Shown one piece after another: positions 24,379 through 42,928 of a stretch of DNA of 42,928 nt (positions are counted from its first letter, which is position 1; each line of letters starts with the position of its first letter). The notes below the pieces were generated by a model. The model saw only the letters and a program-made list of their open reading frames with translations, was not told where the DNA came from and did not search any database. The stretch spans positions 1-42,928 of IMG/VR virus record IMGVR_UViG_3300041407_000036. One strand, 5' to 3'. Both the position numbers and the translations under genes were made by a program. The stretch comes from a virus.

Positions 24379-24561
24379 TCAGTAGCCAGCCCAGTTGCGC
24401 ATTGTTTTGTAGTCGTCGAACGACTCTTCGTACGGCTCTGTGTTGTCAGGTGTGTGGCATGAGTTGAACGCATGCACAACCCACTTGCCTGTTTCAATGT
24501 TGTAGCTGGCCCGCCTGTACCAGTCGTGCTGCTGTGCCCAGCGGACGTGTCTAGCTTCCAT
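24379..24561 (-). CDS. Hypothetical small protein
   Basis: The ATG at 24561 overlaps the preceding TGA (TGATG), giving 60 residues rich in Trp, Tyr and His (MEARHVRWAQQHDWYRRASY, then HTPDNTEPYEESFDDYKTMR). A GTG three bases upstream in frame is an alternative start. The stop is followed by AGTGCTCTTG and a 6-base hairpin (24348-24368). Function unknown. Confidence 0.75.
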   Translation of the reverse strand: MEARHVRWAQQHDWYRRASYNIETGKWVVHAFNSCHTPDNTEPYEESFDDYKTMRNWAGY

Positions 24562-24719
24562 CACAGGCCTCCTAGGTCGAAGTCGAGGACCATACGCACA
24601 GCCCCAGCACTACGCACAGCTGCCTCAAGCTCAGGCCGACTCCGCTCGTAGTTCTCCCGGCTCATAAGTGTGCTGTACACCACTTCCCCAGCCTCGTTGT
24701 AGCCTGTGACCTTAACCAT
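24561..24719 (-). CDS. Hypothetical small protein (52 residues)
   Basis: ATG at 24719 with a GAGGTGA site; the protein starts MVKVTGYNEAGEVVYSTLMS and ends DFDLGGL. Its beta-then-helix pattern and its overlap of the stop with the next start support a real gene. Too short for most gene callers. No family is recognised. Confidence 0.7.
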   Translation of the reverse strand: MVKVTGYNEAGEVVYSTLMSRENYERSRPELEAAVRSAGAVRMVLDFDLGGL

Positions 24720-24722
24720 CAC

Positions 24723-25010
24723 TCACCTCGCTGCATTATGCCCTTTAGGGCTGAAGGACAAGCCAGCGGTAGGCTTCTGCCCACCGTAGTTATCGACACG
24801 CATACGCTTCTTCTCGTACGTCGCATCAGGTCCCATTTCATTCAGTTTCTGCACCTTACGTTCACGCCTTGCAATATCCTTGTGCCGTCCAGCTTGCGCC
24901 TTCATGCTAGCAATGATTGCCTTCCCTTGTTCCCGCTTCAGAGCACGCTCTGCTGGGGTTAGTGGATCAGCGCCTTCAGGCCAAGCGGTTACTTCCTTTG
25001 AACGTGCCAT
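24723..25010 (-). CDS. Hypothetical basic early protein
   Basis: The 95-residue product is Lys/Arg rich and mostly helical (LTPAERALKREQGKAIIASM, then KDIARRERKVQKLNEMG), which suggests nucleic-acid binding. It has an AGAAGG ribosome site and follows a long hairpin by 14 bases. The next gene starts 4 bases after its stop. Function unknown. Confidence 0.75.
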   Translation of the reverse strand: MARSKEVTAWPEGADPLTPAERALKREQGKAIIASMKAQAGRHKDIARRERKVQKLNEMGPDATYEKKRMRVDNYGGQKPTAGLSFSPKGHNAAR

Positions 25011-25023
25011 TCCACAACCTTCT

Positions 25024-25100
25024 GAGTAGTTTCGACAGCAACCTGATCCCGTACTTGCCCGGATCGGCCTAACCTATTCAGGTTGCTGTCGGAACTACTC
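25024..25100 (-). promoter_or_regulatory. Long hairpin in early mRNA leader, possible RNase III site
   Basis: Arms 25024-25046 and 25078-25100 pair over 23 bases with a single mismatch (A-C on the minus-strand RNA), around a 31-base loop. It lies 14 bases upstream of an early gene start and has no T-tract. Long near-perfect stems in T7 early mRNA are RNase III processing sites. The same role is inferred here. Confidence 0.65.
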
Positions 25101-25162
25101 GTGTAGTTCTTGCCTCAGTTGAGGACTTCAGAGGGTAGAGGGCTCGGAGTCGTGGGAGTGCC

Positions 25163-25191
25163 TTGTTAGGTAGCTCGACGTGCTCTGTCAA
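25163..25191 (-). promoter_or_regulatory. Possible host sigma-70 promoter
   Basis: On the minus strand TTGACA (25191-25186) is followed after 17 bases by TAACAA (3 of 6 matches to TATAAT). The -35 box is perfect; the -10 box is weak. It lies downstream of the 34-residue gene and would supplement early transcription of the genes below. Confidence 0.4.
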
Positions 25192-25293
25192 CGCTTGCTC
25201 TACAAACTCCGCCTAGGTAACGTCACATCGTGGCGTATTCTGGACCCTAGGTGGAACGCCTCACTCTACTTCAGCCTGAGGCACAACCGTACA

Positions 25294-25398
25294 TTAAGTC
25301 TTTGTCGTTAAGAGCGGGCGCTTACTGTTACGACCCCGGCCTTGGTTAGCGTCTGCTATCCGCGCCTCTGCCTTATCCCTTTGCAGTGTATCCTTCAT
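25294..25398 (-). CDS. Small basic protein (34 residues)
   Basis: An ATG at 25398 preceded by AAAGG (spacing 3, shorter than ideal) opens a frame reading MKDTLQRDKAEARIADANQG and ending in LTTKT. It is charged and helical in the first half, then basic. It follows the 39-residue membrane gene. Confidence is moderate because it is short and its spacing unusual. Confidence 0.45.
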   Translation of the reverse strand: MKDTLQRDKAEARIADANQGRGRNSKRPLLTTKT

Positions 25399-25476
25399 CC
25401 ACCTTTACGCATCTGCGTCCAGCTTCAGTAGGTAGTGACTGCCTCCAGTGTCGGTGGCATGTACCTTGGTAGTGCT

Positions 25477-25596
25477 TTAGATCAGAGCCAGAACTGCGCC
25501 GCCGATCAAACCAGTCAGGACGAACATCAGAGCAGCGAACAAGGCAACATCAGTAGAGCTAGGGCCTTGCTTATCGTAAATGCTCTTGCGTTTCAT
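25477..25596 (-). CDS. Small early membrane protein (39 residues)
   Basis: The ATG at 25596 has an AAGGAT site eight bases upstream. The protein starts MKRKSIYDKQGPSSTDVALF and has a single hydrophobic segment at about residues 18-39 (LFAALMFVLTGLIGGAVLAL), ending in I before TAA. It is the first identifiable gene after the early promoters. A positive N-terminus then one membrane span suggests an inner-membrane peptide with the N-terminus in the cytoplasm. First early genes of T7-like phages usually protect the genome or redirect the host. This one's action is unknown. Confidence 0.7.
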   Translation of the reverse strand: MKRKSIYDKQGPSSTDVALFAALMFVLTGLIGGAVLALI

Positions 25597-25622
25597 GTTC
25601 GTATCCTTAGTTGGTGAGGTGA

Positions 25623-25651
25623 ACTCTACAGCGTGTGTTGCGTCCTGTCAA
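25623..25651 (-). promoter_or_regulatory. Early host sigma-70 promoter (third of three)
   Basis: On the minus strand TTGACA (25651-25646), then a 17-base spacer, then TAGAGT (4 of 6 matches). It lies about 27 bases before the start of the 39-residue gene, so it is the closest early promoter. It corresponds in position to T7 A3. Confidence 0.6.
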
Positions 25652-25656
25652 GCTCA

Positions 25657-25687
25657 GTAGGTTGGACCTACCTTGCTACCAACCTAC
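25657..25687 (-). promoter_or_regulatory. Hairpin between early promoters
   Basis: A perfect 9-base stem, 25657-25665 with 25679-25687 (GTAGGTTGG and its complement), with a 13-base loop. It lies in the transcript of the upstream promoter and just above the third one. No T-tract follows, so it is unlikely to terminate transcription. Confidence 0.5.
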
Positions 25688-25716
25688 CCATGACATCTGT
25701 TCGGTTAGTGGTTCGC

Positions 25717-25746
25717 ATCTTACCGTGTTGCTGTGGAGCCTGTCAA
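25717..25746 (-). promoter_or_regulatory. Early host sigma-70 promoter (second of three)
   Basis: On the minus strand TTGACA (25746-25741), an 18-base spacer and TAAGAT (4 of 6 matches, with the conserved first TA and final AT). It is the second of three perfect -35 boxes within 255 bases, matching the T7 A1-A2-A3 pattern. Confidence 0.6.
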
Positions 25747-25869
25747 CCTGCTTTATTCGCTACCCTTGCCTGCCGGTCTTACGAGGTAGCTACTGAGCTT
25801 AGCTAGGTTCCGACTACCACCTCAGTATGTCGAGTCAGTGAGTCAGTCTGTAGCGTTGAACTGGTGCCC

Positions 25870-25898
25870 ATGTTGCCTAGGTTAGTGATCAGTGTCAA
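25870..25898 (-). promoter_or_regulatory. Early host sigma-70 promoter (first of three)
   Basis: On the minus strand TTGACA (25898-25893), a 17-base spacer and CAACAT (3 of 6 matches). The -10 is weak; the case rests on the perfect -35 and on forming a set with two similar promoters downstream. A 9-base inverted repeat (25912-25920 with 25948-25956) lies immediately upstream. Confidence 0.45.
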
Positions 25899-26012
25899 CC
25901 ACTATCTCTACCCTCTTCACTAGACCGGATGTGAAGTCCTTGTCTCGGTGAAGAGGTGGCCATTAAGCCTGAACCCTCTGAGCAATGCAATAGCCTAAAC
26001 AGAAGTATTTAC

Positions 26013-26105
26013 TGATCAATTAATGAGCAACCCTATGACTGATCAAATACTGACCAGTGTGATCCAATCTGGTTAAGAAGTGATCAATGCATTGAGTTGA
26101 TCAAT
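26013..26105. repeat. Cluster of TGATCAAT palindromic repeats
   Basis: TGATCAAT or TGATCAAA occurs at 26013, 26040, 26081 and 26098, with a variant TGATCCAA at 26060. The core TGATCA is a palindrome, so both strands carry it. Four copies in under 100 bases is far above chance. T7 has arrays of short repeats beside its terminal repeats; this could be an equivalent or a protein-binding cluster. Confidence 0.6.
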
Positions 26106-26141
26106 AAACAACCAATTATGACCAAAACAAGGGTTCTAGTT

Positions 26142-26160
26142 CTGAAGCCGGATAACATGG
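26142..26160 (+). promoter_or_regulatory. Phage-promoter-like motif on the plus strand
   Basis: The plus strand reads CTGAAGCCGGATAACATGG followed by TAGAGC. It matches the promoter inside the internal virion protein gene (33108-33126) at all but two adjacent bases, including the flanking TAGAGC. It is the only copy pointing this way, opposed to all genes. The change from TATAATGG to TAACATGG could weaken it. Confidence 0.55.
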
Positions 26161-26197
26161 TAGAGCAGAGCGAAACCGAGACAGATCCTTCTGTAGA

Positions 26198-26287
26198 GCC
26201 AGAGGCATGGTATGGAATATCCAGAGGTATAACCCTCTGCAATCTAAAGGAGGCTCCAGAGGTATCTATAGAGAGTCACAGAGGCAT
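26198..26287. repeat. Iteron-like CAGAGG(C/T)AT array
   Basis: Four copies of CAGAGGYAT begin at 26200, 26222, 26257 and 26279, spaced 22, 35 and 22 bases. Two further AGAGGTTAG words occur at 26592 and 26662. The regular 22-base spacing resembles protein-binding iterons or the SRL/SRR repeats of T7 ends. Confidence 0.5.
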
Positions 26288-26314
26288 CACAGAGTGAGGT
26301 CATGAGTTCGTAGT

Positions 26315-26564
26315 CTCCTGCTACGCAGTCAACCACTCACTAGAGATAGGCTAGAGGATCAGTCAGGTATCAGTCAGAGTCTAGTCAGGACTCAATAGAG
26401 ATAGAGCTAAGCACTCTAGTACTCTCACATAAAGAAACAGGACCATAGATAGGCTGAGGCAGAAGAAACAGAGCGCCCTCCCTCCTGCTATCAATCCATC
26501 CAGAACACCAGTGGTTAGGTGTACCAGTAGGCGCTTAGGCTCGCATCCTCCTGCTACGCAGTCA
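26315..26564. repeat. Direct repeat of a 17-base hairpin word
   Basis: CTCCTGCTACGCAGTCA is present at 26315-26331 and 26548-26564, each followed after three variable bases by ACTCAC. Each copy contains CTGC-TAC-GCAG, a small hairpin. Between them, AGTCAG occurs three times at exactly 11-base intervals (26361, 26372, 26383). Confidence 0.7.
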
Positions 26565-26603
26565 GATACTCACCACGCTATGCAATGAGGTAGAGGTTAG
26601 GTG

Positions 26604-26632
26604 TTGACAGTAGGCATTGAGCATGATGTAAT
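26604..26632 (+). promoter_or_regulatory. Sigma-70-like promoter on the plus strand
   Basis: TTGACA (26604-26609), a 17-base spacer and TGTAAT (26627-26632; 5 of 6 matches). It is the best match to a host promoter in the window, yet points away from the early genes and toward the 3' ends of the late genes. No open frame follows. Confidence 0.5.
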
Positions 26633-26820
26633 GCAGTCTCCTAGCTAGATCACTGAGGTTCAGAGGTTAGCTAGGCTGATGCCAAGGGATGACCCCACCC
26701 ACCCTCGCAGGCATTCAGTACGTCCGGGAGGACAGGCATGGGGGCAATAGGGATGCGTGTCGGGTCGGGAAGGCCCTCGCGAATCTAAATAACTTTTAGG
26801 TGCTCATAGAACCATCCAGA

Positions 26821-26934: not shown

Positions 26935-27009
26935 GTTTCCTCCGGACGTGCAGAACTCTCCCCAGTACCCGAAGGCACCGAGGATCACTCTATGGTGGTT
27001 GGTCTAGCC

Positions 27010-27206: not shown

Positions 27207-27434
27207 TTATTCCTTATTGAATGGAGAGGTAGGGCGAGCGATTGCTCTGACCGCACGGATGCAGCCATCTTCTAGGTGGGTACGGGCCAAGGCCAGATCC
27301 CTCTTGTCGAGGTCAGGCACTAAGGCTACCAGCAGCTCAAGTACATCAGCTGCCTTCTGCTCTAAGTCCTTTACCCGGTTGATGGCGCTGATCTCTACTT
27401 CAGTCAGCGCACGGTAAGTCTTGATGCTGGACAT
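27207..27434 (-). CDS. acb2: Acb2-like anti-CBASS cyclic-nucleotide sponge
   Basis: The 75-residue product reads YRALTEVEISAINRVKDLEQ in its first half and DLALARTHLEDGCIRAVRAI in its second, ending ARPTSPFNKE. This follows the Acb2/Tad1 hairpin pattern: an N-terminal Y-R-x-L-T-x-x-E-I-x-x-I-N segment, then helices ending in a conserved R-A-[IV]-A-R-P. Known Acb2 proteins form hexamers that bind cyclic di- and trinucleotides and so block CBASS effectors. It lies after the lysis genes, outside the core operons, as expected for a swapped accessory gene. The match is from memory of the family, not a search. Confidence 0.75.
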   Translation of the reverse strand: MSSIKTYRALTEVEISAINRVKDLEQKAADVLELLVALVPDLDKRDLALARTHLEDGCIRAVRAIARPTSPFNKE

Positions 27435-27751
27435 TAGCTAGCGCTCAGGACGATACCGGTAATCACGCCACCGACAATAGTAGGTGTACCGAAGGTGCCG
27501 GAGCCAGTCACAGTACCGACCGCAACCTTAACGCCACTGGTCAGGGTCTTCTGGGTACTCGGCAGCACAGGGCCTGCACCAGCAGCCACGAGGGCGGTCT
27601 GCAAGGCCAGCAAAGCGTCGTCGATTGCAGCAGCCTGTGCAGCAGTGATCGGGGATGCATCTTGTGCGAAGCGTTGGGTCAGGGTTGCTGCGATGGCACA
27701 CCGACGGCGTACCTCAAGTTGTACGGCAGCGGTCTGGGATTCAATTGCCAT
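27434..27751 (-). CDS. Hypothetical protein downstream of spanins
   Basis: The ATG at 27751 (GGAG site) gives 105 residues. Residues 1-65 are helical and Ala-rich. The last 40 are Thr/Gly/Val-rich beta (SGVKVAVGTVTGSGTFGTPT, then IVGGVITGIVLSAS), a pattern seen in virion-surface or fibre-associated proteins. It overlaps the o-spanin by 11 bases. Function is not recognised. Confidence 0.7.
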   Translation of the reverse strand: MAIESQTAAVQLEVRRRCAIAATLTQRFAQDASPITAAQAAAIDDALLALQTALVAAGAGPVLPSTQKTLTSGVKVAVGTVTGSGTFGTPTIVGGVITGIVLSAS

Positions 27752-27950
27752 TTGGCGATACTCCATTAAGTGAGTTGCACAGCTCAAGCGCTGCGTGGTA
27801 ATCCAGAAGGCCCTGTGTGAGCCCTCCGTACGTGCCTGCGTCGATCAAAGGATGGACGCATGCTACGGGGTCATTTACAGCGGAGCGTTGCGCACAGGCT
27901 GTCACGGACAGGCACAGGAGTAGCAGCATCGCGAACTTCAGGGCTCGCAT
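27741..27950 (-). CDS. Rz1: o-spanin (Rz1-like outer-membrane lipoprotein)
   Basis: The 69-residue product starts MRALKFAMLLLLCLSVTACAQ, a lipoprotein signal with lipobox SVTAC and mature Cys19. About 50 residues follow for the periplasmic part. It begins inside the Rz frame and overlaps it by 80 bases, the overlapping Rz/Rz1 arrangement. With the i-spanin it would fuse inner and outer membranes in the last step of lysis. Confidence 0.88.
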   Translation of the reverse strand: MRALKFAMLLLLCLSVTACAQRSAVNDPVACVHPLIDAGTYGGLTQGLLDYHAALELCNSLNGVSPNGN

Positions 27951-28176
27951 CGAGCACCTCCTTCAGTTGTGCTCTGGCAGCACTAGCAGCCGCCGTAGCG
28001 ACCAGCACCTGCTTCTGGATGTTCCGGCGTAGCGTGTCAGCGTCTGCCAGTGATTGCAGGGCCGTGTCGCGCTGGTCCTTGTACACACCAGCGGCACGGT
28101 GCTCTGAGAGCGCTGCGTAGCCTAGCAGGCAGCACAGCACAGCCATCGCGATGATGGTCTTGGTAGTCCAGATCAT
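27871..28176 (-). CDS. Rz: i-spanin (Rz-like)
   Basis: The 101-residue product starts MIWTTKTIIAMAVLCCLLGYAALSE with one N-terminal membrane span (about residues 5-25) and then a charged periplasmic coiled coil (DQRDTALQSLADADTLRRNI). This is the i-spanin layout. It overlaps the endolysin stop by 4 bases and shares 80 bases with Rz1. Confidence 0.88.
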   Translation of the reverse strand: MIWTTKTIIAMAVLCCLLGYAALSEHRAAGVYKDQRDTALQSLADADTLRRNIQKQVLVATAAASAARAQLKEVLDASPEVRDAATPVPVRDSLCATLRCK

Positions 28177-28670
28177 AGGCCACTCCGGCAGTACGCTGCA
28201 TCGTCCCGGCGACGGTTCTCAAGGCCCTTGCTGGGCTTCCCTTGGATCGTAGCCTTGTAGCCCTTGGCAACGCCTAGCTTGCCTTTCCATGGCGCCTCAA
28301 TCGCATTACAGGCTGCCAGCCAGTCGCCCTTACCCAGCGGCACGGTGAACCGGGTGTGAACCCAGCCACTCTTGCCGGTGTTGATGGCGAGGGATGTGAA
28401 TGCAGCGTGTACGCTCGCAGGGGCGCTCTCAGGCACATACAGCTCAATGGCCTTATGGTACTCGCGGTACATCTGCACGAGGTCTGTATCGCACTCCTGC
28501 ACGGTGTAGCGGGACTTCACGGGACCGACGGTCTGGCCGTAGCACCACGTCTTCACACCACCGCCATCAAGGTACGGGGTGTACGAGACACCCTCCTTCA
28601 GAGCGACGTACGACGCACCAGCAGCTAGGGCGCTAGTCAGCCCCATCGCCAGTAGTCTTTGTTTTAGCAT
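28173..28670 (-). CDS. SAR endolysin (P21 R-like lysozyme)
   Basis: The 165-residue product begins with a weak, Ala/Gly/Ser-rich membrane segment (LLAMGLTSALAAGASYVAL), a signal-anchor-release domain. Glu26, Asp35 and Thr41 (KEGVSYTPYLD, then TWCYG) have the E-9-D-6-T spacing of phage P21 R. It cleaves peptidoglycan after being released from the membrane when the pinholin triggers. It overlaps the end of the holin gene by 38 bases. Confidence 0.9.
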   Translation of the reverse strand: MLKQRLLAMGLTSALAAGASYVALKEGVSYTPYLDGGGVKTWCYGQTVGPVKSRYTVQECDTDLVQMYREYHKAIELYVPESAPASVHAAFTSLAINTGKSGWVHTRFTVPLGKGDWLAACNAIEAPWKGKLGVAKGYKATIQGKPSKGLENRRRDDAAYCRSGL

Positions 28671-28860
28671 TACGATCCTTGCGCCAAGCGGCGACTTTCA
28701 TTACGAGGAATACGGTCGAGATCAGGAAGTAAACCCCCGAGATGATCGCCACCCAGTCAGGCAGGCCGATGCCTGCCACACTCACGCCAGCTATAACAGC
28801 CGAGGCGGAGCTATTGCCGATAGTACCGGCGTCTTCCGCCACGTGCTGCATAACTGTCAT
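28633..28860 (-). CDS. Class II holin, probably a pinholin
   Basis: The start is the ATG at 28860, two bases from the terminase stop, with a GGAGA site inside that gene. The 75-residue product has a weak first segment (SASAVIAGVSVAGIGL) and a strong second one (WVAIISGVYFLISTVFLVMK), then a charged tail (AAWRKDRNAKTKTT). A weak first span next to a SAR endolysin matches the P21 S and phiKMV pinholin type: small holes depolarise the membrane and release the endolysin. Confidence 0.82.
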   Translation of the reverse strand: MTVMQHVAEDAGTIGNSSASAVIAGVSVAGIGLPDWVAIISGVYFLISTVFLVMKVAAWRKDRNAKTKTTGDGAD

Positions 28861-28861
28861 G

Positions 28862-30664
28862 CTAACGTCTCCGTCGTTGAATGCTGTTCCGGGTTCCTTT
28901 AAGGCGCTTAGGTGCGTCCTCGTAGCCCATAGGGTTGTCCATGAATGTACGTGCGTCCTGCTCCCGGCGCTTCTCGGCTGCCTTGTGCTCATCTACAGCT
29001 AGCACAGCCTTCCAGTAACGTACACTGCCAGCCCAAGCCTCAATCCTGTCGTCATGCGCCAGAGAGTTCCTGTCGGTGGTGATTGCGCTGATCTGCTGGA
29101 ACAGGGAGTAGTTGTTGCGCTTGTCGGCCCCGTGCTGCTTACCGTACTCTACGTCAGACAGGAACACCTGCTTGTGCAGGATCACCCGGTGGCGTTGCAT
29201 GGCACTCACTACGGAGTCGATGATGCGCTTCTCTTTCTGCCCTGTGCTGTACTCGCCAATGACGCCCACGCAACCGTACCAAGGATCGGCAGGGTAGTGG
29301 TCGCCTGTCTCAGACACGAAGCCGAGCTTGAGCTTGTCTAGCATAGCGCGCAGGTTGATCTCAAACAGGCCGTGGCCCATGTTGCTCTCCACCTGCACGA
29401 TGGTGACTGTGTAGTGCTTCATGAGCTTACACAGCTTGATGCCGTTGGCCTCGGTGAGCCCGCCCTTAATACCACCCACGTCAAGCGAGTGGATGTAAGA
29501 GCCTACCGCAGTACTGATTCCGTACCCCATCTCATCCGCACCGCCGCCAGCCGGGTCGATGTACATCATACGTAGCAGAGGCGCCACGAAGGCACACTCT
29601 ACAGACACAGGATGGTACATGCTCGTCATGGCTACAGGGAAGTCCAGAGCCAGAGGCGCTAGGTACTTCGGGTCTGCACGGTACGGGAGGATCTCAGGGA
29701 CGGACTCGTAGTCGAAGTTCGCAACCATGAGGTCGCTAAGCTTCAGCTGTTGACGGGCTTCGTCGGATAGACTGGTGTCGAGCATGTGCTGGAGACTAAA
29801 GTCTTCAGGGCCTTTGTCCAGTTCTTTCTCAATGAGGTCGTCTTCGGTGTACCGATGTGGGTCAGAGGGCTGGCCTCTGGTTCCGTCGATACCCCCACCT
29901 GTCTGCAAGGACGGGTCGGCTTGAATGCGCTCCGCAAGGAACGGTGCCAGTCGGCTTCCATACTTCTCTACCTCTTCTGGCGTTGGGAAACGTCCCGGCC
30001 AGATGCGGACTTGGAAGCCTCGACCCGGTAGGGAGTTGTAGATGCTGTCCTTAGTCTGAGGCGTGCCTAGGTACAAGATGTCGCCGTGCGTACAGATCGA
30101 CGAGAACTCTTTAGATAGATGCTTGAGCTTGTTCCTTTCGGTACTAGTCATGGCATTCTTCGGAGATTCGATGTCGTCCGGGATCAGCAAGTCTGCCCGT
30201 TTACCGGGGAGGTTAGCCGTAATCCCGACACAGGCTACCGACGGTGATTTGTCGATACCCTTGAGCGTATAATGCACGTCGAACGCGGAGATGCTTGAGC
30301 GGTCCCCTGCTTGTCTGTCTGGGCGCAGATACTCCAGAATGTCCCATGTAGTGATGATACGTACGATCAGTGTCGCAACTTCCGACGCCTGTACTTCGCC
30401 TGCGGATACGATCAATACCCGAGTCGTAGGGCGCTGGATGATACGCCACACTGCATAGAGGGCTGCGAGGGTGGACTTAGCCTCCCCTCGCTGGGCCATC
30501 ACCATGCGTAACCGAGCACCATACTGCATGTACTCTGCAATGTCTGCCTGCATCTTGGTTAGTGGGAAGCCTAGAAACGACATGCCGTCCACTGCGAAGT
30601 CTACAAAGTTTAGGTAGTTCTCCGCTACTGCCTCAGCATGTGCGAATCTAAGTGCTTGTTCCAT
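28862..30664 (-). CDS. Terminase large subunit (DNA maturase B, T7 gp19-like)
   Basis: The 600-residue product has Walker A AQRGEAKST (57-65) and Walker B LLIPDD (159-164), followed by a nuclease region with Asp residues (MMYIDPAGGGADEMG, then LDVGGIKGG, then YPADPWYGCVGVIG). It uses ATP to drive DNA into the portal and cuts the concatemer. The ATG overlaps the small subunit stop. The C-terminus is basic (LKGTRNSIQRRRR). Confidence 0.96.
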   Translation of the reverse strand: MEQALRFAHAEAVAENYLNFVDFAVDGMSFLGFPLTKMQADIAEYMQYGARLRMVMAQRGEAKSTLAALYAVWRIIQRPTTRVLIVSAGEVQASEVATLIVRIITTWDILEYLRPDRQAGDRSSISAFDVHYTLKGIDKSPSVACVGITANLPGKRADLLIPDDIESPKNAMTSTERNKLKHLSKEFSSICTHGDILYLGTPQTKDSIYNSLPGRGFQVRIWPGRFPTPEEVEKYGSRLAPFLAERIQADPSLQTGGGIDGTRGQPSDPHRYTEDDLIEKELDKGPEDFSLQHMLDTSLSDEARQQLKLSDLMVANFDYESVPEILPYRADPKYLAPLALDFPVAMTSMYHPVSVECAFVAPLLRMMYIDPAGGGADEMGYGISTAVGSYIHSLDVGGIKGGLTEANGIKLCKLMKHYTVTIVQVESNMGHGLFEINLRAMLDKLKLGFVSETGDHYPADPWYGCVGVIGEYSTGQKEKRIIDSVVSAMQRHRVILHKQVFLSDVEYGKQHGADKRNNYSLFQQISAITTDRNSLAHDDRIEAWAGSVRYWKAVLAVDEHKAAEKRREQDARTFMDNPMGYEDAPKRLKGTRNSIQRRRR

Positions 30665-42907: not shown

Positions 42908-42928
42908 GTTCTTTAGGCCCAAAAAAAA
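42802..42928. repeat. Assembly overlap, identical to 1-127
   Basis: Second copy of the window's first 127 bases, containing the start of tail tubular protein A and part of the terminator T-tract. See the entry at 1-127 for why this is judged an assembler artefact. Confidence 0.9.

Follow-up and report, generated by a model that had tools for sequence, protein, structure and literature searches.

The alarm molecules of CBASS trigger bacterial suicide on infection, and homologues of the Acb2 protein have already been listed in hundreds of phages. The Acb2 hexamer takes up three cyclic dinucleotides, which sit where protomers meet head to head, and two cyclic trinucleotides, which sit at the ends of its central channel; its ligands are released intact on denaturation (PMC12043709; PMC10419184). 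The closest described systems are Acb2 of PaMx33 and PaMx35 (PDB 8h2j, 8h2x, 8ixz), T4 Vs.4/Acb2 (PDB 7uq2), and a set of Pseudomonas podovirus homologues with a short hairpin tip. Tad1, which shares the Pfam hairpin domain, is distinguished by an N-terminal antiparallel beta-sheet (PMC12043709) that is absent from the protein described here.

The locus compared with these systems lies in a virus record of 42,928 bases (IMGVR_UViG_3300041407_000036), hereafter called the window, and its features are collected in Table 1. With a probability of roughly 0.87, the product of the gene belongs to the Acb2 (Vs.4) family: a helical-hairpin protein for which we infer a likely hexameric assembly, cyclic-nucleotide ligands and the role of a stoichiometric sponge against CBASS. 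An earlier note on this DNA had placed the gene after the lysis genes of a phiKMV-type phage, and both points stand. A head-tail connector (2175-3749) lies with structural genes beside a single-subunit RNA polymerase gene (4486-6945), which is the phiKMV order; the nearest named relatives are Krylovirinae, and among the closest named phages by DNA is Bertil, a member of that subfamily. The genes run in the order TerS, TerL, holin, endolysin, Rz, Rz1, g117, acb2 and g63, with acb2 thus following the endolysin, Rz and Rz1.

The 75-residue product at 27207-27434 is real and is encoded on the minus strand, which the note had left unstated; the plus strand of the same interval is closed by stops. 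The translation of its 75 codons is MSSIKTYRALTEVEISAINRVKDLEQKAADVLELLVALVPDLDKRDLALARTHLEDGCIRAVRAIARPTSPFNKE, which contains all of the motifs that had been quoted (Y7-R8-A-L10-T, E14-I15, I18-N19 and R63-A-I-A-R-P68). Its start is the ATG at 27434, whose A is also the last letter of the TAA that ends the gene before it (TAATG), an arrangement that suggests coupled translation of g117 and acb2. An in-frame stop two codons 5' of this ATG makes a longer start impossible.

Table 1. Features of the acb2-like locus and its late-gene surroundings in the window
Feature	Coordinates	Strand	Evidence or remark
Holin, probably a shorter ORF within this 119-codon frame	28633..28992	minus	phrog_920 holin 1.3e-07
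Endolysin (phage lysozyme)	28173..28670	minus	PF00959 2.2e-14; phrog_7 1.4e-28
Rz-like spanin	27871..28176	minus	phrog_5151 4e-4
Rz1-like spanin, overlaps Rz end	27741..27950	minus	phrog_21506 Rz-like spanin 6.5e-08; PF23793 0.0011, below cut-off
g117, upstream of acb2, stop overlaps acb2 start	27434..27751	minus	105 aa from ATG 27751
acb2-like gene, short-tip Acb2 hairpin protein, 75 aa	27207..27434	minus	PF24729, AF2 model, Foldseek
g63, downstream of acb2, 63 aa	27010..27201	minus	homologues in 7 annotated Pseudomonas phages

The Acb2-like identity proposed from the letters alone is borne out by Pfam, where the Acb2/Tad1 hairpin domain (PF24729, cut-off 27 bits) is matched over its full length (profile positions 1-58 of 58) at 63.3 bits and E 2.4e-17, far beyond chance. 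Within the 42,928-base record this match is unique to the acb2 ORF, and PF24729 matched in 0 of 14 control genomes. The window protein on its own gives a modest direct match to the solved Acb2 "p26" chains (E 4e-4, phmmer). Searched against the PDB, a profile of 20 viral relatives recovers the PaMx33-type Acb2 8h2j at 1.4e-22 and T4 Vs.4 (7uq2) at 7.6e-9, together with 9ptq ("Acb2 homolog 43", 76 aa) at E 0.95. The gene is another member of the already described Acb2 family, not a new family.

Structure prediction agrees with the hairpin pattern recognized in the earlier note. The AlphaFold2 (AF2) model, built from a 20-row alignment (pLDDT 89), consists of two antiparallel helices (12-38 and 44-66); DSSP assigns no counterpart in it to the short N-terminal helix seen in solved Acb2. 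Foldseek against the PDB returns Acb2 or T4 Vs.4 chains as its best nine matches (prob 1.00, query-normalised TM 0.71-0.77), with E-values (1.5e-3 to 8e-3) that are modest because the helical protein is so small, and Rop as the tenth (E 1.2). That Rop follows Acb2 in the fold ranking, and that the gene adjoins spanins and has in g117 and g63 neighbors that are also small and of unknown function, would suit a late-region helical hairpin with no nucleotide role, such as a Rop-like RNA binder, a lysis regulator or a minor virion protein. However, we regard such a function as very unlikely: the match to the curated PF24729 profile is well above its cut-off, and the ligand-site residues are kept despite differing neighbors, which include an XRE regulator in Sortsne and a terminator downstream of MazG/primase in PaMx35.

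Tad1 identity was considered and ruled out by the lack of an N-terminal beta-strand in the AF2 model and by the in-frame stop upstream. The model is all-helical over the 75 residues, and the missing Tad1 N-terminal beta-sheet makes the window protein Acb2-type. An Acb2-fold sponge could still have another messenger as its main ligand in place of the CBASS signal, for instance the gcADPR of Thoeris or the cA3 of type III CRISPR, since PF24729 also covers the Tad1 hairpin, Acb2 homologues do not all accept the same ligands, and those of Tad1 include gcADPR as well as dinucleotides and trinucleotides (PMC12043709). This possibility is nevertheless judged unlikely, as the Tad1-type sheet is absent and Y7 and K22 of the cyclic dinucleotide site are conserved.

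The retained residues favor a true Acb2 sponge. With the Acb2 of PaMx33 and PaMx35 the window protein shares the full-length family match, the hairpin fold, the Y/N/K motif of helix 1, and R-x-L-A...T and R-A-[IV]-A-[RQ]-P in helix 2. With T4 Vs.4/Acb2, to which it is 28% identical, it shares the fold and the equivalents of Y8, N20, K23, T68, R79 and P84. In the alignment Y7, N19, K22, R63 and P68 are invariant across the window protein, PaMx35 and T4, and Y7, K22 and T52 are equivalent to T4 Y8, K23 and T68. The residues Y11, K26 and R67 of PaMx33 (8h2j numbering), which we take to be ligand-site residues of Acb2, align with window Y7, K22 and R45. In T4 Acb2, the substitution Y8A abolishes cyclic dinucleotide binding (PMC12657218; PMC12657230) and T68M weakens binding (PMC12657230). 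R45 is present in all of the short relatives aligned, whereas T4 has no Arg at that position. On the strength of these conserved residues, we expect the window protein to bind cyclic dinucleotides, and it probably also binds cyclic trinucleotides.

In the mechanism that we propose, the predicted helical-hairpin protomer would most likely assemble into a hexamer, as in the rest of the family. Cyclic dinucleotides would occupy putative pockets between head-to-head protomers through Y7 and K22, and cyclic trinucleotides would probably lie at the three-fold ends, where R45 would replace PaMx33 R67. Such a stoichiometric sponge would keep CBASS effectors, for instance CapV or NucC, from firing. Judged by its position, acb2 would be a late gene, read together with the structural and lysis genes; late expression would fit the reported finding that major-capsid mutations help phages to escape CBASS (PMC10419184), which points to late sensing.

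The window protein differs from the solved structures mainly in size. By alignment, its inter-helix loop, the hairpin tip, has about 18 residues fewer than that of PaMx35 or T4 Acb2, and the same holds against PaMx33; the DNQHKK N-terminus of the PaMx33 and PaMx35 proteins is missing. Most relatives also extend 3-6 residues further at the N-terminus, and the window protein has no DNQHRK. A single-protein scan of viral contigs did not find relatives, whereas an alignment query found 221 stretches encoding them; a Vs.4-like query alone matched 1,195 records. Since 30 of the 30 kept loci that were translated encode short-form proteins of 70-82 aa, the short tip is, as far as these translations tell, a clade feature and a widespread form and not damage. 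A decayed or non-binding Acb2 remnant, to which the shortened N-terminus and tip might otherwise point, is very unlikely, given that the frame is open, dN/dS is about 0.16 against its relative L013, and the short tip runs throughout a large viral clade. In that comparison dN is 0.14 and dS 0.89, which means that acb2 is retained and under purifying selection with respect to L013, its closest relative. Sequence and model together indicate that the window gene is a true, probably functional Acb2 homologue.

The gene has a history of its own within the late region. The phage L015 is almost identical to the window in the late-gene region (amino acid identity 99.7% for TerL, 97% for Rz1 and 98% for g63), whereas acb2 is only 62% identical. 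Correspondingly, dS is 1.11 for acb2 but 0.10 for Rz1 and 0.28 for g63, DNA identity is 44-64% in acb2 against 82-96% in the flanks, and the acb2 tree groups the window with L013 (support 99/97) instead of L015. This near-identical backbone, high dS, identity dip and tree pairing make it most likely that recombination has exchanged the acb2 allele. Where the window protein has Thr (T52, equivalent to T4 T68), the L015 allele encodes Ala. Exchange-like patches also occur in Rz and in part of g117, and acb2 is therefore not the sole exchanged segment. The Rz spanin is 54% identical to that of L015 in amino acids, its dN and dS are nearly the same (0.45), and the Rz1 that overlaps it remains 97% identical despite the divergent Rz.

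Presence of the gene also varies. L013, L014 and L015 carry acb2 at the g117/g63 junction; these three were fetched through acb2, and their counts are uninformative on its frequency. Bertil has both g117 and g63, separated by about 60 bp, with acb2 absent; Draal01 has 15 bp in place of acb2; and none of the seven annotated phages carrying g63 has an acb2 match genome-wide at E 0.01. The short-tip homologues of the Pseudomonas podoviruses MKPT02, pphageBV72, MR5 and HHBS14_1, of equal length and 51-68% identical, lie after endolysin/Rz genes, directly after Rz1 in MKPT02. In contrast, the acb2 of PaMx33 and PaMx35 adjoins MazG and primase genes, whereas that of the window follows a lysis cassette; T4 Acb2, like theirs, has a longer hairpin tip. 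We conclude that acb2 is an optional single gene at a variable junction.

Panoptes is a defence triggered by Acb2. A tentative and rather doubtful proposal is that acb2 is a swap-in/swap-out locus under opposed selection, gained against CBASS and lost or replaced where the sponge is a liability; if so, near-identical sister phages would carry acb2 alleles of differing ligand range. Near-identical phages with divergent alleles, together with relatives that have no acb2, form a natural set for comparing CBASS resistance with Panoptes sensitivity.

These data add a clear Acb2 homologue for a phiKMV-like phage and reveal that related genes are unannotated or misnamed in deposited phages. The homologue in Pseudomonas phage MKPT02 (PQ015601; L002:4986-5222) carries no annotation, and those in pphageBV72 and MR5 (L003:3980-4210; L006:3980-4210) are named "NAD/FAD-utilizing enzyme apparently involved in cell division," apparently a misannotation.

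The suggestion in the earlier note of a counter-defence island was not supported. Searches of Pfam, PHROGs, NCBIfam and PADLOC, which contain few counter-defence families, link neither g117 and g63 nor the small ORFs that follow to any family of defence or counter-defence proteins, and on present evidence acb2 appears to stand alone, as one optional gene in the variable tail of the late genes. For g117, the TTG at 27787 opens a longer ORF of 117 aa. A tblastn search with g117 gave no matches, probably because of low-complexity masking; with masking off, a 76% identical homologue is found in Bertil, directly upstream of the empty acb2 site. Its C-terminus has a Gly/Thr/Val-rich stretch (phrog_9732). 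Homologues of g63 occur solely in Pseudomonas phages, all of them relatives of Bertil and Drael01. Paralogy of g117 and g63, raised by a common weak phrog_17528 match, was rejected, as BLASTP yields no alignment between them.

Downstream of g63, a strong stem-loop with a UUCG-type loop lies at 26950-27000 (z -2.24 for the 111-nt stretch); it lacks a T run and may be a site of processing or a late terminator. Beyond it, about 2.3 kb (24500-26800) contain short repeats and few convincing genes, and probably represent the ends of the phage genome and its early promoter region; if they hold the genome ends, the record, with a tail gene at 42922 and the capsid at 173, would be circularly permuted. 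Sigma-70-like promoters occur there on the minus strand at 25746 and 25651, no more than expected by chance. The same region includes an inverted repeat of 23 nt at 25024-25100, whose arms are 96% complementary and separated by 31 nt.
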